Source: Desulfobacterales bacterium
Lineage (GTDB): Bacteria; Desulfobacterota; Desulfobacteria; Desulfobacterales; ETH-SRB1
Direction: 5' to 3'
Assembly (NCBI GenBank): GCA_030610995.1
Contig: JAUWQO010000005.1
Span: 1 to 59,714, forward strand
Length of the DNA stretch: 59,714 bases
The notes under the pieces are model-generated. The model was not told where the DNA came from. It did no database searches and saw nothing but the letters and a program-made list of their open reading frames with translations. Shown here one piece after another: positions 6,470 through 36,116 of this stretch (the stretch's first letter is position 1; each line of letters begins with the position of its first letter). The position numbers and the translations under genes were made by a program.

Positions 6470-6485
6470 ATGTTCTCCTTTTGAA

Positions 6486-7818: not shown

Positions 7819-7836
7819 TTTTTAATCCTTCCTTTA

Positions 7837-12237: not shown

Positions 12238-12618
12238 AGTAATAAAGTGTAAAATGTTAAGTGTGAAATGTTAGGTGTTAGGTGTAATGGGTTAATTTTG
12301 AATTTTAAGTTTTGTATTAATTTAGCCCTTTGAAAAAAATCGGTTTCAAACGAGCTTCAGGTATGATTAAATTTTATACTGAAAACTATTTGAATGGATT
12401 AGGGATCGTTATGAAAAAACCATAAACAATTTAATTTAAAGATGAAACGTTTTCTTAAAATAAAAACCTTTATTACTAGCCCCTGCGGGTTCTTTCATTA
12501 CGAGCCGTTATCTGAATAACGAATATCGAACAAGGAATTTCGAATTATGAAGTATTCAAGCACTTCGACATTCTGCAGTTCGTTGTTCTGCGGTTCAAAT
12601 TCCTCTTATCTTCTCACC

Positions 12619-12676
12619 TTCTAATCCTCTCACCTTCTAATCCTCTAATCCTCTAATCCTCTAATCCTCTAATCCC
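12619..12676. repeat. 8-bp tandem repeat (taatcctc) running into the 3' end of the PPTase ORF
   Basis: taatcctc repeated in tandem, then taatccc; the repeat contributes the C-terminal codons of ORF 12653-13321. Confidence 0.85.
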
Positions 12677-13321: not shown

Positions 13322-13537
13322 CTTTCATAATAATTGGCTAAAAGTAATTTGCACTTTTCATTTTTTTTTTGAACCGCAGAATATCGAACAAGAAATGTCG
13401 AATGTCGAAGTAACGCCCCTTCGTAATTCTGCGGTTCCTTGTTCGATATTCGATATTCAAAATAGGTGATCAAAGTACTAATCTCAACAAGTGTAAACTA
13501 CAAAATGAAAGATGACCAACAATTTGACTATTTTTCC

Positions 13538-13578
13538 ACTCGACCACTCAACTACTCGACCACTCGACCACTCGACTA
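13538..13578. repeat. Inverse-orientation copy of the tcgagtag repeat
   Basis: ccactcgaccactcaactactcgaccactcgaccactcgacta; its last cta is the stop codon of the 13576-15744 CDS. Confidence 0.8.
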
Positions 13579-15744
13579 ATTGCGAAGCGAAGCGGAGCCA
13601 AGCGCTTTAAGAATAATTCTGCAGTCAGCCACGGTAGCCCCCTTTCCTTTCTCATGAACCAGAAGCGGGTTTATATCCATCTCATCGATTTCCGGGTGGT
13701 TAATTGACATGTCTGAAAGGCTTACCATTAATTTTTCAAGAATTTCTATGTCAACCACAGGCCTTCCCCTGAAGCCCTGCAATAGTTTATATCCCCTGAT
13801 GCTGCGGATCATTCTGCGGGATTCGTTTCTGCCGATAGGCGCTATGCGAAATACAACATCATGAAAAAGTTCAACAAATATTCCGCCAAGACCAAACATA
13901 AGAAGTGGCCCGAAAACCTCTTGTCGATTCATGCCAAGTATCACCTCTTCCCCACGCATGGCCATTTTCTGAATCAGCACGCCCTTTATTTCCGCGTTGG
14001 GATCATGCTGTTTAGCTTTTTCAACGATCTTATTAAAAGCCTTTTTTACCTCATCCCGGCTCTCAAGCCCCAACATAACTCCGTCGGCATCGGTTTTGTG
14101 CAGAATTTGCGGCGAGACAATTTTCATCGCCACAGGAAAGGAAATAGTTTCAGCAATCTCTGTTGCTTCATCCTCACTTTCCGCAAACTGTGTCGGCAAT
14201 ACATTAAAACCATAACATTTAAGCAGTTCAATTCCATCCAGTTCGCCAAGACTGGTTTTCCCTGATTCAAGACAATTTTTAATAATATCGGCGGCCCGCT
14301 CTTTGTCGTGCTTTAATTCATATTGCGCAAAATGCTGACGGTTCAACCACTTAAAATATCTATAAAGGGCTCCGAAAGCCTTTGCCGCATTTTCAGGAAA
14401 CTTATAAACCGGATAACCATACTCCTGAAGATATCTTACTCCGGCGGAAACATCAACAACTCCCATAAAGCAGCAGAGAATAGGCTTGTGAGTGCGCCTG
14501 GCAATTCTGATAATGGCTTCTGCTGTTCCAAGAACGTCCGTCATCGACTGAGGCGTCAGAATTACAATGGCTCCATCTACTCCATTGTCATTGATTACAA
14601 CGCTTAAAGCATTTTCATAACGATCCTGTGCGGCATCTCCAATGATATCCACCGGATTATGAATGTTTGCTGTAAAGGGGAGATGGCTTGCAAGGGCATC
14701 GATCGTTTCCTGATGGAATTCGGCAAGCTTGAGCCCTGACGACATAGTAATATCGGTAGCGATAATCCCCGGCCCTCCGGCATTTGTAACAATGGCGACC
14801 CGGTTGCCGTGCGGAATCTTCCTTGTGAGTTTTCCCAAAGAGGTTGCGCTTTTATAGGCAAAAGCGGTTGCAAAATCAAAAAGCTCATTAATTGAATCAA
14901 CACGAATCATCCCTGTCTGCTGGAAGATCGCATCATACAGCGCCTCGGATCCGGACAGAGCCCCTGTATGAGACGCTGCTGCCTGGGCTCCAGCGCTTGT
15001 CCTTCCCGACTTTATGACGAGTATAGGGGTAGGCCTGTTCCCGGAGGTAATCTCTTTCACTATCTCAATAAATTCCGGGCCTCTTCGAAGCTCTTCGAGA
15101 TACATTAAAATAACCCTTGTATCCATGTCTTCATGCAGATAGCGCAGGAGATCAAGCTCATCCACATCCGCCTTGTTGCCTATGGAAATGAACTTTGAAA
15201 AACCAAAATCCCTGTCAGCGGCAAAGTCCAGAACAGCCGTGCACAATGCACCACTCTGGGAAATAAAGGAAATATTGCCGCTTGCAGGCATACGCGCTGC
15301 AAAGCTCGCATTCAGACTTACCGAAGGAACCGGGTTGATCACGCCAAGACAGTTTGGGCCCACAAGGCGCGCCCCTGCCTTTTTGCAAACAGCAGCTATC
15401 CTGTTTTCTATCTCCAGGCCTTCTGCGCCCACCTCCCGAAAGCCGGCAGATACAATCACAATTCCCTTTACCCCCTTTTTCACGCTCTCTTCAACGGTCT
15501 TTAAGGCGAGTTTGGGCTGGAGAATTATTATTGCAAGATCCACATCACCGGGCACTTCCAGGATAGATGGATATGCCATTATATTTAAAACCGACTTGGC
15601 ATTAGGATTAACAGGATAAAGTATCCCCTGATAATTTCCGCTCAAGATATTGGCAAAAATATCGTGCCCAACCTTTCCGGGCTTGGTGGACGCTCCTATG
15701 ACGGCCACCGATTCCGGGGAAAAAATCGCATCAAGACCTTGCAT
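13576..15744 (-). CDS. Acetate/acyl-CoA synthetase (ADP-forming), alpha-beta fusion
   Basis: 722 aa; CoA-binding N-term SVAVIGASTKPGKVG; SQSGALCTAVLDFA; SHTGALSGSEALYDAIF; ATP-grasp-type C-term FPVAMKIVSPQILHKTDADGV. Confidence 0.93.
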   Translation of the reverse strand: MQGLDAIFSPESVAVIGASTKPGKVGHDIFANILSGNYQGILYPVNPNAKSVLNIMAYPSILEVPGDVDLAIIILQPKLALKTVEESVKKGVKGIVIVSAGFREVGAEGLEIENRIAAVCKKAGARLVGPNCLGVINPVPSVSLNASFAARMPASGNISFISQSGALCTAVLDFAADRDFGFSKFISIGNKADVDELDLLRYLHEDMDTRVILMYLEELRRGPEFIEIVKEITSGNRPTPILVIKSGRTSAGAQAAASHTGALSGSEALYDAIFQQTGMIRVDSINELFDFATAFAYKSATSLGKLTRKIPHGNRVAIVTNAGGPGIIATDITMSSGLKLAEFHQETIDALASHLPFTANIHNPVDIIGDAAQDRYENALSVVINDNGVDGAIVILTPQSMTDVLGTAEAIIRIARRTHKPILCCFMGVVDVSAGVRYLQEYGYPVYKFPENAAKAFGALYRYFKWLNRQHFAQYELKHDKERAADIIKNCLESGKTSLGELDGIELLKCYGFNVLPTQFAESEDEATEIAETISFPVAMKIVSPQILHKTDADGVMLGLESRDEVKKAFNKIVEKAKQHDPNAEIKGVLIQKMAMRGEEVILGMNRQEVFGPLLMFGLGGIFVELFHDVVFRIAPIGRNESRRMIRSIRGYKLLQGFRGRPVVDIEILEKLMVSLSDMSINHPEIDEMDINPLLVHEKGKGATVADCRIILKALGSASLRN

Positions 15745-15765
15745 ATTCCTTACTCCAATTGTAAT

Positions 15766-16030
15766 AGTTCAGCCACAAAGACACTAAGCCACCAATTACA
15801 AATAAATCCCAAATTCCAAGCATCAAATTACAAATAAATCCCAAATTCCAATATCCAATGACCAAAAGGGGATTAGTCGAGTAGGAAATTAGTCGAGTAG
15901 TCGAGTGGTTAACAACTCGACCATTTTCCTACTCGACTAGTCGACCAAAAAGGTACGGGTTTGGGATTTTGAATTTTGGTCATTGTAATTTATTTGATAT
16001 TTGTGATTTGTTATTTATAATTTGCAATCA
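15766..16030. repeat. Intergenic low-complexity repeat block with inverted organisation
   Basis: Contains gttcagccacaaagacactaag, two copies of caaataaatcccaaattcca, tcgagtag repeats, and right-arm words complementary to the left arm (ccaaattccaatatccaatgaccaaaa / tttgggattttgaattttggtcattg). Confidence 0.7.
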
Positions 16031-16064
16031 ACTGAGACCTCTGACCTCTCCGAACTTGGTTCGC

Positions 16065-16943
16065 TCAATCCCCCTTAATCTTCAAAGCCTCATCATACAC
16101 TCTGTTTTTGGGAAGATTATATTTTTTTGCTATCTCTTTTGCAATGTCGGACAGGCTGCCTTTTGCTGAGACCAGCCTCTTTTTTATTTCCTTTCTTACC
16201 TTTTCCATGGAAACATCTTCATTTCCCTCATCTCCGGCCACAAGAAGCGTGCATTCTCCCTTTATTGATGGACGTTCTTTCAATGATCTGAGAATGTTGG
16301 ATAAATGACCTCTGACAAACTCTTCATGAAGCTTGGTCATCTCACGGCACAATACACCATTTCTGTCGCCTAAATTCAATATTATTTCCTCTAAAAGTGT
16401 ATGTATGCGCCTTGGAGATTCGTACAATATTGTTGTTCTTTTCTCAAAAGCCAACTTTCTCAACTGTTCAAGCCGCTTTCCCTTTTTTTTAGCCAAGAAG
16501 CCGACAAAAACAAAGGAATCGGTAGGCAGTCCAGACACGCTGAGTGCGGTAACTGCTGCAGATACGCCGGGTATTGGAACAACTCTTATGCCCCTTTCTA
16601 TAGCCGTCTTTATCAATTGATAGCCGGGGTCGGATATGGTCGGTGTTCCAGCATTCGACACAAGCGCAACAGATAACCCGGAGTTAAGTTTATCAAGCAG
16701 ATCTTTCGTGCGCTCCCTTTCATTATGTTCATGATAAGAAATAAGACGGCTTTTAATATTATGATGAGATAGAAATCTTAAAGTATGCCTTGTGTCCTCT
16801 GCGGCGACAAGATCAACTCTTCCCAGGACATTGAGGGCTCTTAAAGTGATATCCTCCCTGTTTCCAATTGGAGTGGCAATAACATAAAGGTCCCCTTTTT
16901 TGCCGGTCTCTTCAGGATTATTTGTAGGCAAGTTCAAAGGCAT
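16065..16943 (-). CDS. rsmI: 16S rRNA (cytidine1402-2'-O)-methyltransferase
   Basis: GDLYVIATPIGNREDITLRAL, VAAEDTRHT, VSNAGTPTISDPGYQLI, FVGFLAKKKGKR. Confidence 0.97.
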   Translation of the reverse strand: MPLNLPTNNPEETGKKGDLYVIATPIGNREDITLRALNVLGRVDLVAAEDTRHTLRFLSHHNIKSRLISYHEHNERERTKDLLDKLNSGLSVALVSNAGTPTISDPGYQLIKTAIERGIRVVPIPGVSAAVTALSVSGLPTDSFVFVGFLAKKKGKRLEQLRKLAFEKRTTILYESPRRIHTLLEEIILNLGDRNGVLCREMTKLHEEFVRGHLSNILRSLKERPSIKGECTLLVAGDEGNEDVSMEKVRKEIKKRLVSAKGSLSDIAKEIAKKYNLPKNRVYDEALKIKGD

Positions 16944-17310
16944 TTTTGATTATCTTAATGCTTGGCCCCTCTTTTGCTTTTGCTTTTGCTGAATTGACTG
17001 AATTGATAGCCACCACGTCAAACCTGGCCTTTGCATTGCTTTGTTTTGTGGATTTGAGATAATATAAGGCTACCATTGAAATTTTTCTCTGTTTTTTTGG
17101 GGTTACCGCCAATTCAGGGCGACCGAACCGGCTGGATTTTCTGGCCTTTACCTCTATAAAGACAAGGGTTTCCCCCTGTTTTGCGATTATATCGATTTCG
17201 CCGAGTTTAGTGCGGTAATTTAGCTCAATTATCCTGTATCCCTGTTTTTTAAGGCAATTAACGGCAACAGATTCACTTTTTTCGCCGAATTGCTGAGATC
17301 TGGTTGTCAT
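16918..17310 (-). CDS. YraN/UPF0102 family endonuclease-like protein
   Basis: GEKSESVAVNCLKKQGYRIIELNYRTKLGEIDIIAKQGETLVFIEVKAR. Confidence 0.95.
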   Translation of the reverse strand: MTTRSQQFGEKSESVAVNCLKKQGYRIIELNYRTKLGEIDIIAKQGETLVFIEVKARKSSRFGRPELAVTPKKQRKISMVALYYLKSTKQSNAKARFDVVAINSVNSAKAKAKEGPSIKIIKNAFELAYK

Positions 17311-17377
17311 AACAAAGCCTCTGAACGCTCACCATCCCTATCCTTAACCCCTAATCCCTGACAACTATCAATTGTAA

Positions 17378-17524
17378 CAGTTCAGCCACTAAGGCACAAA
17401 GACACAAAGGAGGGATATGATTGATAAATTGAGGAATTGCGAAAAATCCCTAAATTCCCAAATTATGAATTTTAAGAGAATTATATTATAATCTTGGTGC
17501 CTTGGTGTCTTTGTGGCTGAACTA
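17378..17524. repeat. Inverted repeat of the ttcagccacaaagacacaaag family
   Basis: gttcagccactaaggcacaaagacacaaagg pairs with ccttggtgtctttgtggctgaac around an AT-rich centre; related copies at 15766 and 43216. Confidence 0.75.
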
Positions 17525-17623
17525 TTGCCTTGAATATAATACTATTAAAACAAAATCAATACAGGATTACTGCTTGGGAAAAAGCTTCCTGTAAAACATT
17601 TTTTTGTGATATAAAAAATAATT

Positions 17624-18349
17624 ATGATTATCATCGAATCAGCAGGCATTACAGACATCGGCAGAAAACGAACAAATAATGAAGATTGCCTGTTTCTGGA
17701 TGACGACCAGAGACTTTATGTGGTAGCCGACGGCATGGGAGGGCACCAGGCCGGCGAAGTGGCGAGTAAGCTGGTGGTTGAAACAATTCAAAACTACATG
17801 AGGCGGTTCAGGGAAGAGGAAGGTGGAAAGGCCGATCGGCTCCTCTCCAGCATCCATCTGGCCAACCAGGCGGTATTCCATGCCTCGTGTAATAAAAACT
17901 CCTGTCGGGGAATGGGCTCCACTGTATCGGCCGTCTATTTCACAGACAACACCCTCATTGCCGCCAACGTGGGCGACAGCCCCATATACCTTGTGCGTGA
18001 CAAAAGCATAAAGCTTTTGTCCGTAACCCACAATCTTCTTGCCGAGCAGACAGCTATCGACCCGGAGGGGGCAAAGTATCTGAGCGGCATGTTCAAGCAC
18101 ATACTCACCCGCGCCATAGGAATTAAAAAAACGGTAAAGCCCGATATCTGTGAAATTCAGTGTTTGAAAGATGATATCCTGGTCATTAGTTCCGACGGCT
18201 TAAACAATAAGGTCTCCCCGGAAGAAATACTTAATGTCGTTAATAAAGAAAGCCCGGACAAGGCATGCAAGACGCTGGTGGATCTGGCTAACAAATATGG
18301 AGGAGACGACAATATCACCGTTATTATATTAAAGGTAAAGAACTCCTGA
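17624..18349 (+). CDS. PP2C-family Ser/Thr protein phosphatase
   Basis: NEDCLFLDDDQRLYVVADGMGGHQAGEVAS; NVGDSPIYLVRD; ISSDGLNNKV; GGDDNITVIIL. Confidence 0.95.
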   Translation: MIIIESAGITDIGRKRTNNEDCLFLDDDQRLYVVADGMGGHQAGEVASKLVVETIQNYMRRFREEEGGKADRLLSSIHLANQAVFHASCNKNSCRGMGSTVSAVYFTDNTLIAANVGDSPIYLVRDKSIKLLSVTHNLLAEQTAIDPEGAKYLSGMFKHILTRAIGIKKTVKPDICEIQCLKDDILVISSDGLNNKVSPEEILNVVNKESPDKACKTLVDLANKYGGDDNITVIILKVKNS

Positions 18350-18766
18350 AGGAGTGAGGAACACGCCTTATCATGATTCTTTAGATAAACAGATACCTTG
18401 ATGCTTTTATCACCAAGGGTTAAACACAGACATACCCCCTTTTTTTATTTCTCCAGTTAACTTATAAATCAATGTTCCGTATATTCTCTCTTATTTTTCA
18501 ATGGCTGTTCCCGTGGGTTTCCTTCCTGACGATATAAACTTATAAACCGAGCTACATCCCATAGATTTCCCCTCCCGCCGTTTTGTCCCCAAGGTTTACG
18601 ATTTTTATTTCTTGACTTTTTTGATAGATAATTATTATTATTAACATATTCTTGAAGTTTATGGGCATGTTTTTGCTTTGATTTATTCGAATAACTGGTT
18701 TGAAATATTTACTTTTGAGGTTAGAATTTATTCATCTAAATTTCAAGGACATTACAAAAATAATGC

Positions 18767-19477
18767 ATGGAGAATCCTATAATGGCCGAAGCCAAGACCG
18801 AAGGGAAAAAGCAGGGGAAGAAGGCTAAGGGAGAGAAATCTCCTTTTGCGTCGATCAAAGATGTCCGAAAAGCTCTCCACGACTGCCGGAAGCTTATGGA
18901 TGATGGCGTTATAAGTCTTGAATTGCGATGTCCTTATAATGTGGTTTTTAGGGTAGATGAGGAAAAATTCAAAAATTCCGATGGCTGGGACGAAAAGAAG
19001 CGAAAAAAATTCCGAAGGCTTTTATCTCAAGAAATTACTTCAGGCTTGGAAAGCGCTCTTTCCGGGGATATAATACCGGCCTTTGCGCCTGATGTGTTTC
19101 ATTCAGATATGGCACGTAAAGTGGCTGAGGTCATAATGGAGGAAACCAGGAAGATCTTGGTCACTCCTGTTATTGAAGAATGGTCGCGTGTCAAGCATTC
19201 CTCAAAAAATAGTGTACTTCAGTCGGTTGAGTGGGAAATTAATACAAAAGAAAGAGACAGGCATTTGGGCGATTTGAAGCACCTGCGCTACGCCACTGTC
19301 CGGTTATGGCACAGCGAGACAGGGGAGATGAGGAGAGATAAACGGCTTTTCTTTTTTCCACCATTTTCTGAGACAAAGAACAAGAGCTTAACTTTCGATT
19401 TACATTCGAATGAAATTAAAATACTTATTAACGACCTTACAAAAATATTAAAGGCACTGGAGAAAGCTGATTCATAG
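18767..19477 (+). CDS. Hypothetical protein, gene 1 of an uncharacterised three-gene operon
   Basis: 236 aa; no recognised domain; 21 nt from the next gene. Confidence 0.75.
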   Translation: MENPIMAEAKTEGKKQGKKAKGEKSPFASIKDVRKALHDCRKLMDDGVISLELRCPYNVVFRVDEEKFKNSDGWDEKKRKKFRRLLSQEITSGLESALSGDIIPAFAPDVFHSDMARKVAEVIMEETRKILVTPVIEEWSRVKHSSKNSVLQSVEWEINTKERDRHLGDLKHLRYATVRLWHSETGEMRRDKRLFFFPPFSETKNKSLTFDLHSNEIKILINDLTKILKALEKADS

Positions 19478-19497
19478 TACCACGGACGAGGATAATC

Positions 19498-20118
19498 ATG
19501 GCTAAAGCCAGGAATATAGAAAAATCACGTAGTGTCCCTCGGAGAATGTTTTTGGGTGAAAGAGGTATTACCCATTCGGAGCAGAGGGTTCGAAACTTAG
19601 AAGACTACTTGAAGATGTTTTTCGGGTATGATCCCGACTCCTCAGATCCAAGAAAAGCCGCTATCAAAGATAGTTTGTTTCTTTTTCAACAGTTGCGGGG
19701 TGATTCCGTTATTTCTGATCCTCCAATTGAGGAAAAAGGCCGGTTCCATGAAGAATTGGAAGCAGTTGTAGCTGCCGCAAAGGCTTTATTTACCGGCTTT
19801 GACGACCTGATGACCCGATGCGCACGGCATACCGATCTGTGCGCAGCCCTTCGCGTCTTAAGAACGGAGGCAAAAGATAAACCGAGGAGTTCTTTTTTTC
19901 GGGTTATTGTAGACATCCACGACTGCGTACGGTTCACGGGACCGGAGGCCACGTCAAAAAAAATGGCTGAGGCCACTAGTAATGTCGTTGCGAATTTGTC
20001 TGACTCGATGACGAAGGAAGAATTGTTCTCTATAACCGACAAATTATTTGATGCTGGCCTCCGTCCGTGGTCACTACCGCGTGGGGATCAGGAAAAGATG
20101 AATAGCAGTGGCAAGTAA
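19498..20118 (+). CDS. Hypothetical protein, gene 2 of the operon
   Basis: 206 aa; overlaps gene 3 by 11 nt. Confidence 0.75.
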   Translation: MAKARNIEKSRSVPRRMFLGERGITHSEQRVRNLEDYLKMFFGYDPDSSDPRKAAIKDSLFLFQQLRGDSVISDPPIEEKGRFHEELEAVVAAAKALFTGFDDLMTRCARHTDLCAALRVLRTEAKDKPRSSFFRVIVDIHDCVRFTGPEATSKKMAEATSNVVANLSDSMTKEELFSITDKLFDAGLRPWSLPRGDQEKMNSSGK

Positions 20119-20971
20119 GGTGGATTCTGCGACTTGGGAGACGGGGGAGGCCGTTTTTCTGGAAACTACGGCTGCGGCTGAGCGTGTTTTCGGCTTACCG
20201 GAAACAATAGAATTCATTGACGGGGTATGCCAGGACAAAACACTTCTTAGTTCTACCTATGTTTGGGATGAATTTCGGCGAACATTTCTTTATGATACCA
20301 TAATTTGCCACACTGTTTTTGTAAATTCTCTTGAAAGACAAGAAGATTTTGCCACGGCGCTCAAACGCTTGCCAAGGTTTTATGAACTTCGGTACAAGCC
20401 GCGAAAATTACGTAGAGCTTTGGATGTAATCGCCCGCCTGCATGAAACACCTTTTGAATCCTTAGAAGAAGCAATTCAACGCCTTGACAATGATATACGG
20501 TATACGCTTAAGCGACTCTTTTTTAATGGTTTGCAACGCCCTCTTTTGGACGGTGCTGGGTGCCGAATGACAGCCGAAAATATTATAGAAACTTCACCAC
20601 AAGTAACAGACAGATACGGGACGTTCAAGCTGCCCTCAAAATGCAGCAAAAAGGAAAGGCCGGAGTGCAAAATAATTTCTTTTTGGAAAGAACGCAGGGC
20701 GGACATTGAAGCGGTTGCCAACATGAAAATACCGAGTGGCATAAAAAAGAACGTTCGTACCGAATTAGAGGAATTTCGAAAAGCAGCCCAAGCCATACTA
20801 AAGGGTAAAACGATTGAAGCCTATGGCACGCGGTGTTACGCGAAAATGGCCGATATAATTATTTGCCTCGAATGTCCTCCTGGTATTCCTATCGTAACCA
20901 GCAATAAAAAACACTATCGTCCGCTTTGCCAAACTCTTCGAAGACCCGACCCAATCTGCTTCCAGCCATGA
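20108..20971 (+). CDS. PIN-like domain protein, gene 3 of the operon
   Basis: 287 aa from a GTG start; VFLETTAAAERVFG near the N-term, LLSSTYVWDEF, and MADIIICLECPPGIPIVTSNKKHYRPLC resembling the terminal acidic/T-x-N element of PIN folds. Confidence 0.6.
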   Translation: MASKVDSATWETGEAVFLETTAAAERVFGLPETIEFIDGVCQDKTLLSSTYVWDEFRRTFLYDTIICHTVFVNSLERQEDFATALKRLPRFYELRYKPRKLRRALDVIARLHETPFESLEEAIQRLDNDIRYTLKRLFFNGLQRPLLDGAGCRMTAENIIETSPQVTDRYGTFKLPSKCSKKERPECKIISFWKERRADIEAVANMKIPSGIKKNVRTELEEFRKAAQAILKGKTIEAYGTRCYAKMADIIICLECPPGIPIVTSNKKHYRPLCQTLRRPDPICFQP

Positions 20972-21077
20972 ATGCCCATAAGACCCGCAAAACGGTATCC
21001 ACAGAGATTTATTTCTTAAAACCATCCTTCTAAATATCCATGGCGGCGTTGGATCAGCCTCAAGCCATAATCCAATT

Positions 21078-21223
21078 TGCCCAGCCGGAAACATTCTCCA
21101 TGTTTACTGGCCGGGCACCCATTTTAATAAGGTTTTTATTGTAATCACTGTCAAATGTATAAATTGGTTTTTGCCAGGACATTTTGCCGAGCAAAAAAAG
21201 GCTGTTGAGTTATGGCGAAGGTA
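21078..21223 (-). pseudogene. Internally deleted, frameshifted remnant of the DprA-like gene at 28526-29161
   Basis: About 100 nt match 28540-28640 (acccattttaataaggtttttattgtaatcact...ggtttttgcca), then run straight into sequence matching 29003-29047 (gccaggacattttg.cgagcaaaaaaaggctgttgagttatggcg); about 362 nt absent, junction at gcca. Confidence 0.85.
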
Positions 21224-21271
21224 TTAAATAACCGGCCATTATATTTGCTTTTTTATAAAAATCAGTACCTG

Positions 21272-21625
21272 CTATTCACTGTTCAAGGCCACATGTGTTC
21301 CTTGTTCTAATACAGGCCTGTCCAAAAGGATGGCCTCAGCCACTTTTTCCGGAACTTCTTTCCTGGACAAAAAACCTAGCTTGACCGCTCTGCAGACGAG
21401 AAAGTCGTCTTCCATGGAAGAATAGGTTTCCCATAGCTCATGGGATGTTTTTTGATGAAAGCTGTGAATTCGATCATTCAGCTCGAAACAGTCGATTTCC
21501 TGCCGGCGCCATTGAGCAAAGTGTCTGTCCAACATCTCCAGGGCTCTGCTCAATTCGCGCTCATGTGCAAACCCGGCCAGCTCCAGCAGCTTTTTACGAA
21601 TTGGTTTTGAATAATTATGTGTCAT
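21272..21625 (-). CDS. Hypothetical protein
   Basis: 117-aa ORF with plausible composition. Confidence 0.55.
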   Translation of the reverse strand: MTHNYSKPIRKKLLELAGFAHERELSRALEMLDRHFAQWRRQEIDCFELNDRIHSFHQKTSHELWETYSSMEDDFLVCRAVKLGFLSRKEVPEKVAEAILLDRPVLEQGTHVALNSE

Positions 21626-21904
21626 ATTTTATAATTATTTCAATATATTTTAGAAATTTATAATTCTATGGATGCTACCTGCTTCAATAGCATCTGTTTC
21701 CAACTAATGCGCTGATCAAGACGCGACACCAAATCACTTTTAAGCTTCGAAACTCTTCTGTTATTAAGGTTTTTGTCTCTTATTGTCTTTCATGGGTCAA
21801 AGGCAGACTTGACACTTTATTTTCTGATAAAGATAACTCGAAAAAATCAATAGTTAATATTTAAGATGTGACCCTGTTTTCTGTTCCTCCTAAATAATAA
21901 GTTC

Positions 21905-21955
21905 GGGATCTTCAGCCGTAGCGATTAGCTGTCGGCTGTAAGAGAAAGGTTATGT
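21905..21955 (-). other. Degenerate attC site (cassette 5, DUF4145 ORF)
   Basis: Minus strand: R''-like ACATAAC (21949-21955) overlapping the ORF stop, then a CAGCCG...CGGCTG stem followed by AAGA pairing TCTT with one unpaired T; no clean GTTRRRY R'. Confidence 0.5.
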
Positions 21956-22612
21956 GCCGCTTTGTTTCCGGACATCTATCCTTTCCTTGAGCCGTTCAAT
22001 CCTTGAAGGGGCAATGTAAACGTACTCTACCACGGCGCGAAAGAAATCATCCAAGAGTTCTGCGTCCCAGAAATCAACTTCCTGTTCAGCGGCGTGCGCA
22101 CCAAGATTCCCAATGAGTCTCATGAGTTCCGTAATTTCGGAGAAATAGCCCGGAAAGACGCCCCGGCTGGAAAGGTCTTTCAATTGCTCAAACAGAGTCC
22201 GCCCATGGGCCTTTTGGTCATGGCAGATGAACTCCAATGCCCTTCTGATCTGACCTGCGAAGGCATTCGGTGCGATGTGTCTTAATGGCCAGATCTCCTC
22301 GTAGATTCTCTGTATTCTTTCTGGGACGCACTTTGTAGAAGCGACTTTGTGCCGCTCAGGTAAGAGCTGGCTTCCGCGAGGATAAATGCGGGTCTGCTCC
22401 ATGGACTCGTGCCTTGAATAGCCTGAGAAGTCCCCGTAAATACTTATGCCTTGGCATGTTGGACATTGATAAAGATAATAGTCGAAGTCCTCGTTATGCC
22501 GCTGCCCATCTATATGCTCGAAAAGCTCTTGCCCGCGCTGATATCCTACACGTTTGTGGGGCACTCGGTTACTGCAGTGATAGCAAATCAGTAGTTCCGT
22601 ATCATTCCACAT
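21950..22612 (-). CDS. DUF4145-like (HEPN-like) protein in a gene cassette
   Basis: 220 aa; N-term CYHCSN...CPTCQG zinc ribbon; IRRALEFICHDQKAHGRTLFEQL...ITELMRLIGNLGAHAAEQEVDFWDAELLDDFF typical of DUF4145. Confidence 0.75.
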   Translation of the reverse strand: MWNDTELLICYHCSNRVPHKRVGYQRGQELFEHIDGQRHNEDFDYYLYQCPTCQGISIYGDFSGYSRHESMEQTRIYPRGSQLLPERHKVASTKCVPERIQRIYEEIWPLRHIAPNAFAGQIRRALEFICHDQKAHGRTLFEQLKDLSSRGVFPGYFSEITELMRLIGNLGAHAAEQEVDFWDAELLDDFFRAVVEYVYIAPSRIERLKERIDVRKQSGT

Positions 22613-22637
22613 AGCACTTACTCAAGAGATTGAAGGC

Positions 22638-22705
22638 TCATAACGACGGCTCTCACCATGGATGGCCGCTCTTTGGCCCGAATCTGGTGCAAAGCCAGGT
22701 TAGCC
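22638..22705 (-). other. Integron attC site (cassette 4, DUF4365 ORF)
   Basis: Minus strand: R'' GGCTAAC (22699-22705, contains stop TAA), R' GTTATGA (22638-22644), stem TGGCTTTGCACCA / TGGTGAGAGCC with bulge. R'' is complementary to the cassette 5' boundary GTTAGCC at 23733-23739. Confidence 0.8.
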
Positions 22706-23716
22706 CAACTTATTAACAAAATTGCCACTCACAAGAGCATAAGCCATTTCTGACATTTCCTTGTTTATTTCTGATGGGATGCCTTTGTCTTCTGTAAATT
22801 TATTCAGGTTATTGTCATTCTGGTCTAACCATTCAAATATTTGTTCAACGTCAGCAATCTCAACATAAGTGTTCCCAGATTTTTTTAACTTTACTTCTAT
22901 ATCGCAGTATGAAAACAAAAGAACAGTCAAGCCCATTCCATTAGCGTGTTTTCCTAAAAAATAAAACCACGGTATGCCAGCTTTTATACTCTCAGAGTAC
23001 CAATGACGTATTTCTGGTATTTCATAAACCTCTCTGGGGTCATTATCGTATCCGGCGATTAACACCTCTAAAGTACCTCGTTTTTTCAATAGAGACTCTC
23101 TGTTTATAGACAACCTATCAATAACATCTTTTAGGCCAGAAAAATCACACGCCAACACGTCGTCTTTGGGAACTAAATACACACCAAAATCCGATTTATC
23201 TATCGCGTCATTAACTTGCAAAGATAAAGCTATTTTTTTGGAGTTATCAGATACGGGACCAGCAATTAATCCCCAATCATCTTTAACCGATAGATCTAAT
23301 ACATTTTTCTCAGAAATCTCTATCCACCAACCACTTTTGCTTGGTGACGTAATATTGGCATTGAACTCAACCCATTTTCCTTCGCTACAATCACTATTTA
23401 ATACTACAAGAACAACTGGAAAAAGGCAGTTCAAGTAGTAATTCAGATGTTTGTTTTCTCCCTCATATCGAATTCCTCCTTCAGTCTTTTTGTTGAAATA
23501 TGAATCCCCACACTTAATTTGTATTCCTATCGTTTGTCCTGTTACATTTTCATCAGTCACGATATCTATGTAACCGTCTATTCCAAAATCAGATTCTTGA
23601 TGAACAGATCTATATATCCACCCCAGTTTCTGGTGAATAAAGCTATCTATAAAAGACTCTCCAGCCCTTCCTAATCGTTGACTCTTACCATATTTTGGAT
23701 ATCCAAACTTGCTCAT
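22700..23716 (-). CDS. DUF4365 domain protein (PD-(D/E)XK nuclease-like) in a gene cassette
   Basis: GRAGESFIDSFIHQKLGWIYRSVHQESDFGIDGYIDIVTDENVTGQTIGIQIKCG: D...QxK-type core. Confidence 0.85.
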   Translation of the reverse strand: MSKFGYPKYGKSQRLGRAGESFIDSFIHQKLGWIYRSVHQESDFGIDGYIDIVTDENVTGQTIGIQIKCGDSYFNKKTEGGIRYEGENKHLNYYLNCLFPVVLVVLNSDCSEGKWVEFNANITSPSKSGWWIEISEKNVLDLSVKDDWGLIAGPVSDNSKKIALSLQVNDAIDKSDFGVYLVPKDDVLACDFSGLKDVIDRLSINRESLLKKRGTLEVLIAGYDNDPREVYEIPEIRHWYSESIKAGIPWFYFLGKHANGMGLTVLLFSYCDIEVKLKKSGNTYVEIADVEQIFEWLDQNDNNLNKFTEDKGIPSEINKEMSEMAYALVSGNFVNKLG

Positions 23717-23776
23717 ACAGTTCTCGCTATTAGGCTAACCTATATCCCTCGTCCCCTATATCCCTCGTTTTTTTGT

Positions 23777-25759
23777 TCATCGGACTTCCTTAATGGCCCA
23801 GCCAAGTTTCTCTAATGCCTGAAGATCACCATCTTTGATGTGTTCATCAAGTACCGCCAGGCAGAGAAGATTTGTCGGACGAGTCATAGCAACGTAGATT
23901 CGTTTGAGATGTTCGGCAAGGCGCTTGCGTGGGTTAGCGTTTGGCAGTTGTCCTTTCAGATACCCTTTATCAATCAACACCATTAAATCGTGCTCGTAGA
24001 AGATGGTTTCGAGCACGAGTACAGCGCAGAGCGTTTCGCCTTTTACGGAATGAATCGTATCAACCTTCACGGAAACCGGCCCAGCCTCACACTGGTAGCA
24101 GAAAACGTTATCGTTGGCCAGACTCTGGTTCTGAAGGGCTTGTTGAACATTCGCCTCACCACTGGTGTTACGAATGAATTGGTCAACATCCGGGTTCCAA
24201 GATTCGGCGTTGAAATGCCCGAGGGCAGCACGCGCTTCCTCAGCAAACTCATCCAGGTTTGGTTTTCCTCCTCTTAGAAGAGTCTGACATGTTATTGCCA
24301 GAAGTGTATTCAAACGCAGGTACCCTACTGGACATTTCTCTCTGAGTTGACGAACCATTGTGCTTGGGCTAAGAGAGCGACTGATATCTGTGACTCCCTG
24401 CAAACGCAGCATCCTCGCGCAGGCCTCGAGCAGCAATGTTCGCCCTTCCCCCGTTGATCTATTCGTGATCATCCCTGTTTGGGCTTGGTCAAGGTGGGCG
24501 GAAAGGCATGTCAGGCGTGCCTTCGCTCGTTGGTGTCTTGGCACGAAAGACGGCCAATAATCGCTGATAGCACTCGGGAACTTGTTTGCTTCCTCCTTTG
24601 CTTTGCTGTTTGCCCCCACGGCCTTGACCTGGGTTTCGCTGAGTCCAGTGCAGATCTCACGCGCGACCAGACGACAGAAATTCGGAAGAACCTCCTGTAT
24701 GCGATCTCTCTTAAAGACAAGCACCGTGTGCCGTCGATCTGCCTTGCGTGTATCGCCAATAAGCTCTTCTGGAGGGCTGTCTGCACAGACACATTGGGAG
24801 AGGCGGGCGATTGAGGGGCTCAGTCGAAACGACTTCTTCATCGGCAACACAATCCCTCGGGGGAAATGTGCGCCGGTCGTGTTGTCCGCGGTCGAATGGT
24901 AAATTGCCTGCCGGTTGTCCCCAAAACGCTGAACGACGGAACGCTCTGGGAAGAGAGTATCGAGAAGGCGACCCTGTTCAACAATTGTGTCCTGCATCTC
25001 ATCGAAAAAGACCATTAGGAAGCGCTCTTGCAGCAGATCGGCAACCATAGGATGTTTCTTCAGATACCATCCTGCTAAAGCAGCCATGTCTTGATATCTG
25101 AACATTCCCTGCTGTGACATGCGCTCCTTGAATTGCTGCAATTGTTTTCCTGTCGCACTGTCCAAACCCACGGGTTGCCTCTTCGTTCCCAATGGCGGGA
25201 GTGAAAGGTCTTCGTCCTTATACTCAATCACTCTACTAATATAGTCTGCGATTGTGACATTTGGGTTCCTCTTTATCCAATTTGATATCGCATTCCACGC
25301 TGTTGCGTAAGGGCCATTTCGCCGTGTGCCCTGGAAAAACTCCTTCTTAGCCTCAATTTCGTAGTACTCATTCTCAACGACACCTGGACGAGTGCCGAAT
25401 CTCTCGATTGCCGCTGGGATTGACAGAAACTGATGGAGGAAGGACTGTATCGTGCCCACAAAGTGCGGGTATGCAGTAAGTGCCCGTAGGAATGGTACTT
25501 GCGAAAACCTTCTCTCGATTTCCCTCCGAGCAGCGTTTGTATGGGAGAGAACGCAGATACCCCGATGCTTGTAATTCCATTTGGATGCAAGAATGCCGAG
25601 TTTAGTGACGAGGAGCGTCGTCTTTCCGCTGCCCGGACATGCCCGAATGTCGACAGTATCCATGCAGCGTAGGACGGCACGACGTTCTTGGTCCAAAGGA
25701 AAGCCCCATTGCGCTTCGGCAGCCTCAATGTCCATGTCGCAAATTTCAGGGAGTCGCAT
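23777..25759 (-). CDS. gajB: Gabija GajB-like UvrD/Rep-family helicase
   Basis: ACPGSGKTTLLVTKL, FFDEMQDT, YVAMTRPTNLL. ORF is open to 25870; Met38 at 25759 (MRLPEICDMD) gives a 14-nt overlap with gajA and is the likelier start. Confidence 0.88.
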   Translation of the reverse strand: MRLPEICDMDIEAAEAQWGFPLDQERRAVLRCMDTVDIRACPGSGKTTLLVTKLGILASKWNYKHRGICVLSHTNAARREIERRFSQVPFLRALTAYPHFVGTIQSFLHQFLSIPAAIERFGTRPGVVENEYYEIEAKKEFFQGTRRNGPYATAWNAISNWIKRNPNVTIADYISRVIEYKDEDLSLPPLGTKRQPVGLDSATGKQLQQFKERMSQQGMFRYQDMAALAGWYLKKHPMVADLLQERFLMVFFDEMQDTIVEQGRLLDTLFPERSVVQRFGDNRQAIYHSTADNTTGAHFPRGIVLPMKKSFRLSPSIARLSQCVCADSPPEELIGDTRKADRRHTVLVFKRDRIQEVLPNFCRLVAREICTGLSETQVKAVGANSKAKEEANKFPSAISDYWPSFVPRHQRAKARLTCLSAHLDQAQTGMITNRSTGEGRTLLLEACARMLRLQGVTDISRSLSPSTMVRQLREKCPVGYLRLNTLLAITCQTLLRGGKPNLDEFAEEARAALGHFNAESWNPDVDQFIRNTSGEANVQQALQNQSLANDNVFCYQCEAGPVSVKVDTIHSVKGETLCAVLVLETIFYEHDLMVLIDKGYLKGQLPNANPRKRLAEHLKRIYVAMTRPTNLLCLAVLDEHIKDGDLQALEKLGWAIKEVR

Positions 25760-27731
25760 CGAGCGTGCCTCCTTCCTCGTCTTCAGCGCCGCTTGTGCTT
25801 GTCGCTCCAGTGGCGTGGTCGATGGCTCTGACGAGGTAACCCGGCAGCGCTCGTCGCCAACGCGCCTCATCCCAGTCCGGAGCGCAGTAACGCCGCTCCA
25901 AGAGGCTTGCTATGCACTGCGCCGTCTCGGCCTTGGATACTTGCCTTTTCAGCAGTGGATCATAGATTAGGCAAGCAATTTCCTTTGCCGATTTGCCTTC
26001 ATCATGCCACTGCTTGTATTCCGCGTTTGCTTTTCGAATGATTTCTTTGGCTTTGTTGCCTATTGGAAAGGATGCATAGGTAGAATTGGCAGATTTAGCC
26101 AGCGATATGGCAACATGAAGGTAAGGAGCCAAGTCGGTCAGAGCAAGGTCGAACTCGAAGGTCCAGCATGGCGACACTTCAGTAATGACCGGGCCACCAT
26201 CGTTGGCTTTCCGAGACTTAATTCGGCTGTTGATTTTATCTTTAGGCCATTCGTTTTCTGTCTTCCTTTCAGCAGACAACAGAGGCTTTGCTTCAACTGG
26301 TGGGATGTCCCGATCAGCAAGGCACGAAACACGAACGGACATTTGCGGGTTGCTCTTCTGTTGAAAGACACGCGAGTATCGGAACAAACCGACGTGTCCA
26401 ACCTTAACAATCGAAACGCCATGCTTCGTGAGCGAACGGCCAATCTTCTCCGCCAATGTCGGGAGCAAGAGCGCTTCAGCATCCCCCTCGACAATTAGCA
26501 CCCCCCTAGCAAAAAACATGTTGGACTTCGTTACATCGAGAAACCGCTCCAGAAACTCGTAATCCGATTGGTTGAGGCGGGTGAATTGCGGGCCCATGGG
26601 AAAGGCCCGTCCCTTGTGCATGACAATGAGCCCCTTCACGCCGATTCTTGAGGCAAGGTTGGGACTGTGCGAAGTAAGCACAATCTGCATCTGATTCTGA
26701 GGCGACGTTGGCTTGCGCTTTGAGTGATCGCGCAGGAATTCGATAAGGCGCAACTGTCGCTGGGGTTCCAAGTGCGCTTCGGGTTCTTCAATAAGAAGGA
26801 GCGGAAACTCAGGGTCCCAGTCGTTGGAAGGAGTTAATGCGAGCAGTTCCGTTGCAATGAATAGAAGGTTGTGAATGCCAAGTCCTCGGGTCGCTCCCTC
26901 GGCGACATCTTCCAAATTCAACTCCATCCGCTCCAGAATTTGCCGCAAACCATGCGCCCTGATATTGATGTCACAGCGAAGAGGTACTTCGCCAAGGCTG
27001 AAATGTTCAAGATACTTTTCGTTTACACCCTTGGTAGCATTTTTGATGACGTCGACTTCTCTCAAATTATTTTCAGCCTTCCGCATTATTCCCACGAGAG
27101 TCTTAGGTTTGGAATCCATATCGTTTGGGTTCCAGTCGTCCTTCTCTTGGTCTTTGATACCTGGGTAGGCTCGAAGTACTTGAGACAATCGCGATCCCTT
27201 TCGCGCCGACATCTCGCTAACAGCATCGCGCAGGGGCTTTAGATAGGTTGCTCTCAAAAAGTCCTTGGCCGCTCCTTCAACGCGTTTGCCCTCCTCGTCC
27301 GATCCGGCTCTTACCTCATACGTAACGCGTCGCCTGCGAGGACTGATCTCTTTCCCATCATTCCGCTCGGCCTTGAGCCACATTCTCAGATAGAACTCGC
27401 TTTCGGCCCCTTCTCCATCAACGCTAAGATATTCCAGCAACGCACCCGCTTCCATTGAGTTCAATCCGCGAAACTCCCCGAGGATCGTCAGTTCGAGAGC
27501 AGGTTTCTCCTGCCCTACCCCGACATGAAAATCGCTTTCCTGCACGGTGAAGTAGTCCTGCGTCACCGTCCCAACCAATAGACGAATCGCATCAATGACG
27601 CATGTTTTACCCGAGTCGTTCTCCCCTACGAGGAGATTCAATCCCGGCTGAAGGTCAATGACGCCATGCCCGTCTTCCTGGCGACTACCGAAGATGCGAA
27701 AGTTCTCAATCTCGAGTCTATGCAGATACAT
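25746..27731 (-). CDS. gajA: Gabija GajA-like OLD-family ATPase/TOPRIM nuclease
   Basis: LLVGENDSGKTCVIDAIRLL, LLLIEEPEAHLEPQRQLRLIEFL, TSHSPNLASRI, TOPRIM GVLIVEGDAEALLLPTLAE; immediately upstream of gajB. Confidence 0.9.
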   Translation of the reverse strand: MYLHRLEIENFRIFGSRQEDGHGVIDLQPGLNLLVGENDSGKTCVIDAIRLLVGTVTQDYFTVQESDFHVGVGQEKPALELTILGEFRGLNSMEAGALLEYLSVDGEGAESEFYLRMWLKAERNDGKEISPRRRRVTYEVRAGSDEEGKRVEGAAKDFLRATYLKPLRDAVSEMSARKGSRLSQVLRAYPGIKDQEKDDWNPNDMDSKPKTLVGIMRKAENNLREVDVIKNATKGVNEKYLEHFSLGEVPLRCDINIRAHGLRQILERMELNLEDVAEGATRGLGIHNLLFIATELLALTPSNDWDPEFPLLLIEEPEAHLEPQRQLRLIEFLRDHSKRKPTSPQNQMQIVLTSHSPNLASRIGVKGLIVMHKGRAFPMGPQFTRLNQSDYEFLERFLDVTKSNMFFARGVLIVEGDAEALLLPTLAEKIGRSLTKHGVSIVKVGHVGLFRYSRVFQQKSNPQMSVRVSCLADRDIPPVEAKPLLSAERKTENEWPKDKINSRIKSRKANDGGPVITEVSPCWTFEFDLALTDLAPYLHVAISLAKSANSTYASFPIGNKAKEIIRKANAEYKQWHDEGKSAKEIACLIYDPLLKRQVSKAETAQCIASLLERRYCAPDWDEARWRRALPGYLVRAIDHATGATSTSGAEDEEGGTLDATP

Positions 27732-28100
27732 GCTAATCTCCTTTTATCGCCAGACGAGCGTTCCTTGTCCGGGGGTCCATGAAATATTAACATTTGCCTC
27801 TATTCACGAGCCCCCTCGCTGAACATCACCTCGCCTCTTCCTCCAATGCGAGTCTTTTAAGAGTTTGTCATTTCTCCGTTGCTGAGGATCAGGGGCACTC
27901 AACGGTTCTTGCGGATCTGAGCCTTGCGCTTAGCATCACCATATTTTCCAAATCTACCGCCCATGGACACTTCCAATCTTCGCATCAGACTTATTCAACA
28001 TAGGATGCTCTGTGAAATCATGTTTGCTTTTATTTAACTGGGGTCAATAACATTCCGGCCTTACCGGAATTTAAGATGTCACCCTTATATCTTTCGTTAT

Positions 28101-28523
28101 CTACATAATGTACATTGTATCCACCCTGTCCTGTTGTTTTAGAAATTCAAGTTGTTCATCAATTGTCGAAAACATAGAAAGGTCCAATTCTTCGAACTCA
28201 TCAGGACCGGTATTCGTTTTTCTAACGACATTTTGAATAATATCCTCTAATTGGTCTTTTGAAATTTCGGGAACTCTGGTGACAGAGCTTTTCTGCGGGA
28301 CACCACTTACGATCTTGAAATTATAGCTCACCATTTCAAACATTCCATTGGTCTTTTCTTTTGTTAATATTCGATATTCAAAATGCTCACGACGTCCAGC
28401 CATGGGACGAAAATAATAGAATTTATACAATCGTTCACCCTTACTTATCCGCAGTAAATAGTTGTCATCTTTAGTCTGTGACTTTTTTCTCTTTACGTTT
28501 TTTATTCGCTTCTTCATACCCAA
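28101..28523 (-). CDS. Hypothetical protein at the 3' end of the methylase/helicase operon
   Basis: 140 aa, 2 nt downstream of the DprA-like ORF, same strand. Confidence 0.65.
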   Translation of the reverse strand: MGMKKRIKNVKRKKSQTKDDNYLLRISKGERLYKFYYFRPMAGRREHFEYRILTKEKTNGMFEMVSYNFKIVSGVPQKSSVTRVPEISKDQLEDIIQNVVRKTNTGPDEFEELDLSMFSTIDEQLEFLKQQDRVDTMYIM

Positions 28524-28525
28524 TA

Positions 28526-29161
28526 CTACTTATCAATGCTTGCCCACAGGGAAACATTGTCCATGTTTACAGGGCGCGCACCCATTTTAATAAGGTTTTT
28601 ATTGTAATCACTTTCAAAGGTATAAATTGGTTTTTGCCAAGAAAGAATCTGCCGGCAGAGTTCTTCGGTTTTACTGGATGATTCGGCATGGATCACGAAA
28701 ATAACGGCAGACATGGCTGCGACAAATAGATTGCGATAATGGGACCTCTTGGCAGAAATGCGTTGTTGATTTTCATCAAATGGGGAGAGAAAAAGCAGCC
28801 GATCGTCTTTCAGGGGTTTTTTATATTCTTTATTTATCCGCATTTTATTTATACTTCTGGCAGGACAGATGATGACGGGCTGGGTGCCGCGTAAAAGTAT
28901 TGTGAGGCATTCACGTTCCATTGGCGAATGGAATCCGCTGATAACTGTCATGCCGGCATTCCTTAAAATTTGCGCGATGTCGTAGGTTTTTACTATCAGA
29001 TCGCCAGGACATTTTGTCGAGCAAAAAAAGGCTGTTGAGTTATGGCGGAGGATGTCGAGGTTTCCGATGGCCGTGATCGCGTCCGGAGCGTCTTTGCCCA
29101 GGTGCTGCTGTAAGGCTGATGGATAATTCGGGTCGTTTTTCTTCAGGCTAATTGTATCCAT
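28526..29161 (-). CDS. DprA/Smf-like Rossmann-fold protein
   Basis: YPSALQQHLGKDAPDAITAIGNLDIL...AQILRNAGMTVISGFHSPMERECLTILLRGTQPVIICPARSI. Confidence 0.8.
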   Translation of the reverse strand: MDTISLKKNDPNYPSALQQHLGKDAPDAITAIGNLDILRHNSTAFFCSTKCPGDLIVKTYDIAQILRNAGMTVISGFHSPMERECLTILLRGTQPVIICPARSINKMRINKEYKKPLKDDRLLFLSPFDENQQRISAKRSHYRNLFVAAMSAVIFVIHAESSSKTEELCRQILSWQKPIYTFESDYNKNLIKMGARPVNMDNVSLWASIDK

Positions 29162-29164
29162 CTC

Positions 29165-32100
29165 TCAGCCTAATCCCGTTCGATACTTGATGTCGTAGTT
29201 GATGATAAAGTCGAGTTCTTCGTCTGTAAAGCCGTAATGTTTTGCTAAAGCTCTGTCGATTTCATCTATTAATGATTTGGTTTTATTCGGTCTGTATTGC
29301 TCATAGGTCATTTTTCCAATTCGCATCTCTTTTGTCGCTTTAAGAGTTCGTTGATGGTCATAACCCAAGTTTTTAAGTTTTCTACCTATATCAGGGTTCA
29401 GGTCAATGAAAATTTTACCATTGTCAACCATTGTCAAATGCCGACAATCAGAATATTTTCTCCACAACCAATAAAAAGTTGTTGAGTTGAAAACAGCACA
29501 TATTGCCAACTGCGTCTCACAATCCTTTACAAAACGATTTTTGTATTCATTAGACGCTTGTATCTCATCAAAAGCTCTGAGCCAGTAGCCACCAGTGCCC
29601 CCGCTTATTGCAACCAATTGGCCTGTATCTGTAAAATAGGTAGTAACGTTTTTCTTGTTATTTTCAATTTTTTTCACAACACTCAACTCTATATCATTTG
29701 AAAATTTTCCCCAGCCCCCGTCCCTTGATTGAAACCCCGACTCTACGTAGCATACTAATTTAAGTATATTTTCACGCTCATTTTTCAGCCAATGCTTAAA
29801 ACCAGCTGACATAAATGATGAAATCTTATCAAATGACTTTTGGAGAATACATATAGACAGAATTTGATGGACCCCACTAAAAAGGCAACTTGGTCTGTCT
29901 GCAAAGCTAGAATAGTAAATATGTAAAGCAGTTCTCTCCATTTCTTGTCTTAGATTTGACATTCGAGGTGTAGCGCCCAATGAAACTGGAACAATCATTC
30001 CAAAAAAGCAATTATTATTCAAAAGAGCTATAGAGCGCTCTATTACAAACGCATACAGGTTCCCACAACTTTCTGTTTTGTACCCCTTTACCAAATAATT
30101 CTTTCGCATTTTCTTGTATTCTACATACGGCGGATTCCCAATAATTACATCAAACCCGCCTTCATTAATAATCCCATAAAACTCGCTAAACCAATGAAAA
30201 GGCTGGTGGCTTTCACGCCATTGGGCGAACTCCTTGTTGTATTTTTTCTCAGAAGTCACACTGTTTTGGCGAATATCATACTCTGATGCCAGGTAACGAT
30301 CCAGTTCGTCTGCAAGGAGCTTTAACCTGCTGCTAAGTTTCTGTTTGGCATCAGAAAAATCATTTGTATCCATTCCGTGCTCTGTCTGCATCTGCCGAAA
30401 TTTCTTGAATGCCATGTCAGCAATTTCGGCCTTTTCCTCTATCCGACCTAAGGCATCAAGATCCTCCGGAAACAATAGTCTTCCTTGTTTTTGCTTGCCT
30501 GCTTCAGACATAGTAATTGCTTCCCTGACTTCATCCTTGTTTGCAAAACCCACGAGTGTGTTTCCCGCCCGGATATTAAAATCAATGTCCGGCAGCGGCT
30601 CGATCTTATCAACACTATCAACCTGGGCAACCAGTTTGAGAAATAGGCGAAGCTTGCAGATTTCTGTTGCTTCCTCCATGATGTCCACACCGTACAGGTT
30701 GCTTAGTATGATCGACTTGAGGATGAAATAGCGGCGGTTTGGGTGCTCCTCTATCCGTTTGAGGATTTTTCGAAAATCACCGAATTTGTCGGAGCGGTGT
30801 TTCTGTCCTGAGCTTTCCAGTTCATCAAGAAAAACCTGCATCCGGTCAAGACACGCCTCGTAAAGGGGTTCAAGGATATTCAGAGCGGCAAAAAGGAAGG
30901 CACCTGACCCGCAAGTCGGGTCCAAAACGTTCATCCCTGGCTGAAATTGCTCATTCGACTTTTCCGGTATCCGGCCTGCTATGGTATAGTAAATGGCGCG
31001 GAGCAGTTCAGGGCCTTCACAGTTTTCAATCACGTCCTGGGCAAACTGGCGGATGTCGAGATTATATGTGATAAGATCGTTGATGGAACTGATTCCACCC
31101 CTTGTAAGTTTGCCATAGACTTCTTCGTAACGCTGCCGCCGTGCCACCACCTCCCGCCAGATTTCGGTAGGCAGGGCATATTCCGGGCTTGCAGGTTTGT
31201 TCCACTCGGTGCGCTTTGAAACATTCTTTATTCCGGCAGCGATTTCTTGGGGCAGGTCTAATTTTACTCCTTTTTTTACAACATCATAAATATAACGGTC
31301 AGGATCTTCCTTGAGCAGCCGCCATACAGACTGCTCACCTTCAAAGGCGATTTTGCACTTCTTTTGGGACTGATCAAAGAGAAATGGGATGATGGTGTTT
31401 TTGCTGATATACTCTGTGATATCCTCTTTGGTGTAATAAGCACCCATCTGTTTCTGGTTGATGTATTTTTCAAAGATATAGCCAAGAACATCCGGGTTGA
31501 TTTCATTGTCAGCCTTTAGCCGACGCTCATCAAGATGCCATTGGTACTGCTCAAAAAAAGCGAAGAGATTTTCAAATGCCGCATCCTCGATCTGAATCTC
31601 TTTTCCGTGCAGATTTTCAATCTGGTGTCTTTGAAAAAGGCCTCCATCAAGATAAGGCACCTTGCCCAAAAGCCTGTTTGTTTCCGGGGTGCGGTCTTCC
31701 TCTTTTTTGGCAAAGCCCTCAAAAAAGAGCGGGCAGAGAAAGTTCTTGTAATATCCATTTTTGCTGTGTTCTTTGCTCTTATGCAGGCAAGATCTCAGGT
31801 AATCTGTATTATTATCGAGAAAGCCTTTTTTCTGGATAAAATAGATAAACATCAGGCGGTTTAACATGACAGATATATACCACCTCTGCAACTTGTCTTC
31901 AGGAATGCCTTTCAGAAATTCCGAGAACTTTTCGTGTTCCGTCTTGAACCGGTCGTAGAACTTCTTTGTGACTTTTTCTACATCAAATGCCTTTTTAGCG
32001 CGTCGGCCCACTTCGATAATGGTCAGTTGTTCCTCTTCTTCAAGACTGAATGCCAGATTATCGATTTTCTGGATAAGCGAATCGCCGGACTGCTTTGCAT

Positions 32101-32458: not shown

Positions 32459-32481
32459 AGTCCTGAAATGGTCTCCTTATG

Positions 32482-35874: not shown

Positions 35875-36116
35875 TAGAGTATCCTTTTTGAAGGGTTGAT
35901 TATTTTTGCCTTTCCGATGTCATCTATAATCTCGTAAGGTAAAAAAATCAATAAATCTATTGTGTTCCGCTAACGAAAGTCCGGGATGTTCCTCAGGTTA
36001 TAACTGATATCGTTAAGAAGGGAACGTGTGTGAGGATATTAATTGGAAAATAGGAAAATTGATAACGCGACAGTTCAATATAAAAAGAAAGGCACTATGT
36101 TAACATACTTGTTTGC

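Follow-up and report, generated by a model that had tools for sequence, protein, structure and literature searches.

A two-cassette array without an integrase directly downstream of a Gabija operon in a Desulfobacterales genome, possibly placed there by an integron integrase

Background

In work that Loot et al. are said to have published in Nat Microbiol in 2024, integron cassettes were reportedly inserted experimentally at attG sites. Secondary sites of the integron integrase IntI follow the motif G, then T or A, then T. Integrons have been presented as antiphage gene stores by Darracq 2025, Getz 2025 and Kieffer 2025, at least as these studies are cited in PMC12444791. The DREN domain of SPARDA stays inactive until Argonaute and APAZ assemble it, and residues D41, Q60 and K62 of NbaSPARDA are needed or important for activity (PMC12205087). 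For HEPN proteins, the canonical motif is Rx4-6H, and the structure of an integron cassette HEPN protein is listed as PDB 3jrt (PMC3710099). There is as yet little explanation of how genes enter defence islands.

Here, we analyze a locus in which two cassettes lie directly behind a Gabija operon. The window, i.e., the whole stretch of DNA that was analyzed, comprises 59,714 nt (GCA_030610995.1, JAUWQO010000005.1, positions 1-59,714 forward; contig C156 in this analysis) and belongs to a draft genome of a Desulfobacterales bacterium (ETH-SRB1; 3.02 Mb, 93% complete). Our best explanation, towards which we lean without great confidence, is that a two-cassette CALIN, a cluster of attC sites without an integrase, was placed by an integron integrase right behind the Gabija operon, with its genes in the orientation of the operon. 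The placing integrase was most likely one from this lineage.

Anatomy of the cassettes

All features of the operon and its cassettes are on the minus strand. The gene gajA (25746-27731; PADLOC GajA, 634.7 bits) encodes an OLD-like ATPase/TOPRIM protein, and gajB (23777-25870; PADLOC GajB, 437 bits), directly upstream of the cassettes, encodes a UvrD-like helicase. The 5' boundary of cassette 4, G/TTAGCC (23733-23739; the slash marks the junction), lies 37 bp past the gajB stop. The cassette extends from the first base of TTAGCC to the G of R' (22644-23738, based on the R2 model described below and the end match), and carries a 338-aa ORF (22700-23716) and attC-4 (22638-22705; R'' GGCTAAC, R' GTTATGA), whose L arms are atypical, the left one lacking the usual extrahelical base. 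Cassette 5 runs from TTATGAGCC to G21904 (21904-22643, based on motifs, R2, end match and attC alignment), with a 220-aa ORF (21950-22612) and attC-5 (21898-21955, from R2 and an alignment to a host attC site on contig C173; R'' ACATAAC, L arms CAGCCG/CGGCTG). At the R' position of attC-5 we find GAACTTA, not GTTRRRY.

The motifs quoted in an earlier note on this DNA are all present (GTTAGCC at 23739-23733, GGCTAAC at 22705-22699, GTTATGA at 22644-22638, TTATGAGCC from 22643 and ACATAAC at 21955-21949), and both ORFs stop inside R'' as it stated (TAA at 22702-22700 and 21952-21950). Its description of a degenerate second attC is right as to ACATAAC, but the extent had to be corrected: the site is best read as 21955-21904, ending at G21904. 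The GC contents of the cassette ORFs are 0.36 and 0.50, versus 0.52 for gajB; the difference between the two cassettes is in line with separate origins. A 14-bp direct repeat, CCTATATCCCTCGT, occurs in two copies 16 bp apart (23739-23768) and occupies precisely the interval from gajB to the boundary of cassette 4.

Evidence that the sites are attC

A check of the cassette region with attC models, suggested by the earlier note, depended on the model. R1, a covariance model built from 13 class-1 attC sites of plasmids, does detect another array in the window (the first array, see below; 30.4 and 19.1 bits), but gave 6.5 and 6.3 bits for the Gabija-array sites and recognized neither, from which we conclude that both are divergent or decayed. 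Because R1 misses these sites, we built a native model, R2, for which 23 attC sites were taken from elsewhere in the host genome, outside the window contig. Searching the whole window with filters off, R2 assigns attC-4 20.4 bits (E 0.011) and attC-5 19.2 bits (E 0.023), so that they rank third and fourth after the first-array sites (47.7 and 34.9 bits). Next come a true site read on its opposite strand (16.1 bits) and then the best unrelated match (11.5 bits). On a 1951-base stretch alone, the R2 E-values are 3.6e-4 (attC-4) and 7.6e-4 (attC-5). The E-values are approximate.

The ends of the cassettes were also compared. When the first 10 bases of a cassette are set against the reverse-complemented last 10 bases of its R'', 9/10 positions agree, and this is so for cassette 4 as well as cassette 5. 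Of random GTT/AAC pairs in the window with a spacing of 300-1200 bases, 0.25% reach this level. Given the R2 scores and these end matches, both sites are attC, though divergent. With the stops inside R'', these observations bear out the proposal that the DUF4365 and DUF4145 ORFs are integron cassettes. A search with TIGR02249 (integron integrase) gave no match on the contig, and the integrase is thus absent from the whole 59.7 kb. The array therefore has the attributes by which a CALIN is recognized: at least two attC sites, no adjacent integrase and cassette starts that match their own R''.

Integrons do occur elsewhere in this genome. A profile search of the contigs found two full-length integron integrases (490 and 481 bits). 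The latter is on contig C185 (IntI at 243-1187, minus strand), with the first boundary at 1320 and attC sites at 2377-2449 and 3996-4066. Because these sites chain by matching boundaries (GTTGAAC with GTTCAAC, GTTCGGC with GCCGAAC), a complete integron is present in the host genome. An R2 search of the genome yielded 37 candidate attC sites on approximately 20 contigs, some of them deep within long contigs that have no integrase. An integron integrase is found in 27 of 38 relatives.

Proteins encoded by the cassettes

The cassette 4 protein combines DUF4365 (Pfam, 113.8 bits) with a Crr6/DUF1817-like C-terminus, which Pfam matches weakly. Residues E41, D43, D47, Q66 and K68 are invariant in an alignment of six homologues. 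The only confident PDB matches are SPARDA DREN effectors (E 3e-7 by profile, 4e-9 by fold; structure model with pLDDT 75 and pTM 0.47), and the catalytic residues D47/Q66/K68 have a D-x18-Q-x-K spacing identical to that of NbaSPARDA D41/Q60/K62. The protein thus has the PD-(D/E)XK fold with D, Q and K residues that is expected of DREN/DUF4365, and, judging from sequence and model, is likely a DNA/RNA-degrading defence enzyme. Pfam finds no APAZ in the 338-aa protein, and no Argonaute was matched among the neighbours scanned. Since the Crr6-like domain sits in the place of Argonaute/APAZ, the trigger of this nuclease would have to be a different one.

The closest homologue (51%) is in a Geobacteraceae MAG, between trpF and trpB (1390-4805 of that locus). 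There, the DUF4365-Crr6 gene follows another cassette-like gene, with ends TTAGCT/AGCTAAC, and precedes an attC-like site (R1 10.9 bits, E 0.2 over 5 kb). The attC of the cassette-like gene seems to be interrupted by a group II intron. By analogy, this arrangement suggests that genes of the DUF4365-Crr6 family may move in cassette form and settle beyond integrons.

In the cassette 5 protein, an N-terminal CxxC...CxxC zinc ribbon precedes DUF4145 (HEPN superfamily; Pfam, 54.4 bits). The sequence reads R-x7-H (MRLIGNLGAH) instead of the canonical HEPN spacing, which makes RNase activity doubtful. An AlphaFold model of this protein was poor (pLDDT 44.7) and was discarded.

Two arrays in separate variable segments

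The first array (5040-6898, minus strand) contains three cassettes with chained boundaries (GTTATAC with GTATAAC, GTTAGCT with AGCTAAC, GTTCTAC with GTAGAAC). Its middle cassette encodes a pEK499_p136-type HEPN protein with a canonical RNAVAH motif. Positions 303-4694 encode a large protein with an HNH-effector-like N-terminus. A palindrome at 58768-58832 was also considered as an attC; it received 16 bits from R1, was not confirmed by R2 and is probably no attC.

The block 7836-18341 is syntenic, wholly or partly, in sister genomes G002, G005 and G006. This conserved block of 10.5 kb separates two variable segments, each with one array, and the arrays therefore do not derive from one decayed integron. 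The earlier claim that they are independent is in this respect well supported. In the same three genomes, 18341 is joined directly to 36112-36115, such that an island of 17.8 kb (18342-36113), with Gabija, the cassettes, a type IIG RM enzyme and an SNF2 helicase, is absent from them. The island is bordered by a PP2C gene on one side and by a CMAS-type methyltransferase gene on the other. Another relative, G003, has other content at this place, which marks it as a variable spot (hotspot). Misassembly of the island is unlikely because there is conserved DNA on both sides. The type IIG restriction-methylation enzyme is encoded at 29165-32458 and the SNF2 helicase, of the defence type, at 32482-35874.

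The term 'defence islands' in the earlier note is fair for the island at 18.3-36.1 kb, and would be tentative for the surroundings of the first array. The contrary possibility, that DUF4365 and DUF4145 are ordinary partners of Gabija, did not hold, as neither adjoins gajAB in any of five Gabija loci from plasmids.

The junctions and the proposed target of insertion

Upstream of cassette 4, R2 finds no attC, and the 37 bp after gajB are too short for one, in agreement with the earlier note. Comparing these 37 bp with the attI regions of two host integrons revealed no attI-like sequence. We also considered whether Gabija lies inside a large preceding cassette, and rejected this because the interval from gajB to cassette 4 is without attC.

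At the other end, attC-5 aligns ungapped to the host attC at C173:13169-13226 up to a G, with 44/52 identical positions (85%), compared with a median of 61% and a maximum of 72% among pairs of native attC sites. Both share the final G, after which C173 continues with TTGGCC and the window with AACTTATTA; attC-5 therefore ends in G/AAC where the homologous site reads G/TT. This could mean that R' is decayed, or else that host DNA, joined at insertion, makes up the right half. The G/AAC end and the lack of an upstream attC or attI fit insertion at a non-attC (attG-like) site.

Relatives were searched for an uninterrupted locus in several ways. A gajB search of 390 genomes of the order gave one distant match (32%), and thus no uninterrupted Gabija locus, while protein searches with DUF4365 and DUF4145 in 395 genomes of the phylum gave zero matches. 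No empty site was found in relatives by flank DNA, where the 3' flank consists of dispersed repeats, nor via another host attC locus (on contig C40). The pattern of joined flanks, GGGATATAGG followed by AACTTATTATTT, was searched with 3 mismatches and led to nothing but a conserved, unrelated locus that is also intact in the host. A match near the 3' junction in G002 (contig C240) was rejected as an orthologous site because it is a dispersed repeat. Dispersed repeats at 21738-21824 (~85 bp) and 21844-21889 (35-45 bp) adjoin the 3' junction of the array and recur on numerous contigs from the same genus and family.

The proposal of a non-attC target thus fits the missing attC and attI upstream, while the proposed comparison with Gabija loci without the insert, attempted by gajB, flanks and joined flanks, produced no clean junction. 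Because the empty site was not found in relatives, we infer this step rather than observe it.

Discussion

In the explanation that we favour, the cassettes would have been excised as circles, with attC folded as bottom strand, and would have recombined with a double-stranded site that was neither attI nor attC, giving the 5' junction G/TTAGCC and the 3' junction G/AACTTATT. Being promoterless, both cassette genes would be transcribed by read-through from gajAB; on the minus strand from gajB to the cassette 4 ORF, we found no promoter-like or terminator-like site. The Crr6-like C-terminus probably senses infection or keeps the DREN-type nuclease inactive. On infection, the nuclease would attack nucleic acid and bring the cell to a halt, and the zinc-ribbon DUF4145 (HEPN) protein of cassette 5 is a likely second effector or regulator. 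A natural insertion of the attG type, in which the operon promoter takes over from that of the integron and new effectors are added to the island, is plausible, although we would not quite expect it.

The attC hits, the end matches, the host integrons, the lack of attC and attI upstream, the 3' G/AAC, the separated arrays, the DREN fold and the parallel in the Geobacteraceae MAG tilt the balance modestly towards this explanation; counted against it are the missing empty site, possible decay of R', the missing extrahelical base of attC-4, the lack of recognition by R1, the HEPN spacing of the DUF4145 protein and the chance that the island was taken up in one piece. This last idea, in which a donor already had the cassettes inserted beside Gabija and the island arrived as a single block, would explain why the 17.8 kb are missing from three sisters and why gajB, DUF4365 and DUF4145 lack a close relative in the ~390-395 genomes of the order and phylum. 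However, attC-5 is nearest to an attC of its own genome, at 85%, whereas other host attC sites reach no more than 72% among themselves, and this likeness suggests a local cassette pool. We regard block transfer as unlikely, and it concerns where the insertion occurred, not its nature.

We would give a similarly low chance to the array being the relic of a full integron that lost intI, attI and most cassettes, with Gabija brought alongside later. CALINs are often regarded as degraded integrons (PMC9024848), and attC-4 and attC-5 are indeed degenerate. Yet the gajB stop is intact and 37 bp from an exact G/TT boundary, with no attI-like sequence, and intact integrons are found elsewhere in the genome. 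It is far less probable still that there are no cassettes, and that ordinary genes happen to be flanked by chance GTT/AAC motifs and palindromes. The low class-1 scores (6.5 and 6.3 bits) would permit this, but the held-out R2 model puts only the two first-array sites ahead of them, a 9/10 terminal match occurs twice and both ORF stops fall within R''.

Under insertion by an integrase, the locus suggests that integrons are able to add defence genes without promoters to defence islands already in place. Were cassettes to arrive behind defence operons as a matter of routine, integrons would feed defence islands directly, beyond their own arrays. In addition, the locus yields a candidate stand-alone DREN nuclease that has a new partner domain and resides in a cassette.

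Comparison with known systems

Like other CALINs, the array has two attC sites, ORFs in one direction and no integrase within 59.7 kb; unlike them, it consists of two degenerate sites only and lies directly behind a defence operon. It resembles attG insertion in having a boundary at G without upstream attC or attI, and in that a host operon could drive expression. It differs in being natural, in that the target site is deduced and the empty site is absent from the relatives searched, and in that G/AA departs from the IntI secondary-site motif. As in antiphage integrons, candidate defence genes are within cassettes, but here they are outside the integron platform and adjoin Gabija, and their function is predicted. 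The cassette 4 protein shares with the SPARDA DREN nuclease domain (PMC12205087) the fold and the catalytic D/Q/K at the same spacing, but carries a Crr6-like C-terminus, and neither APAZ nor a short Argonaute was seen. As with PDB 3jrt, a HEPN-superfamily gene is carried in a cassette, although cassette 5 encodes a member of the DUF4145 family with a zinc ribbon and R-x7-H.
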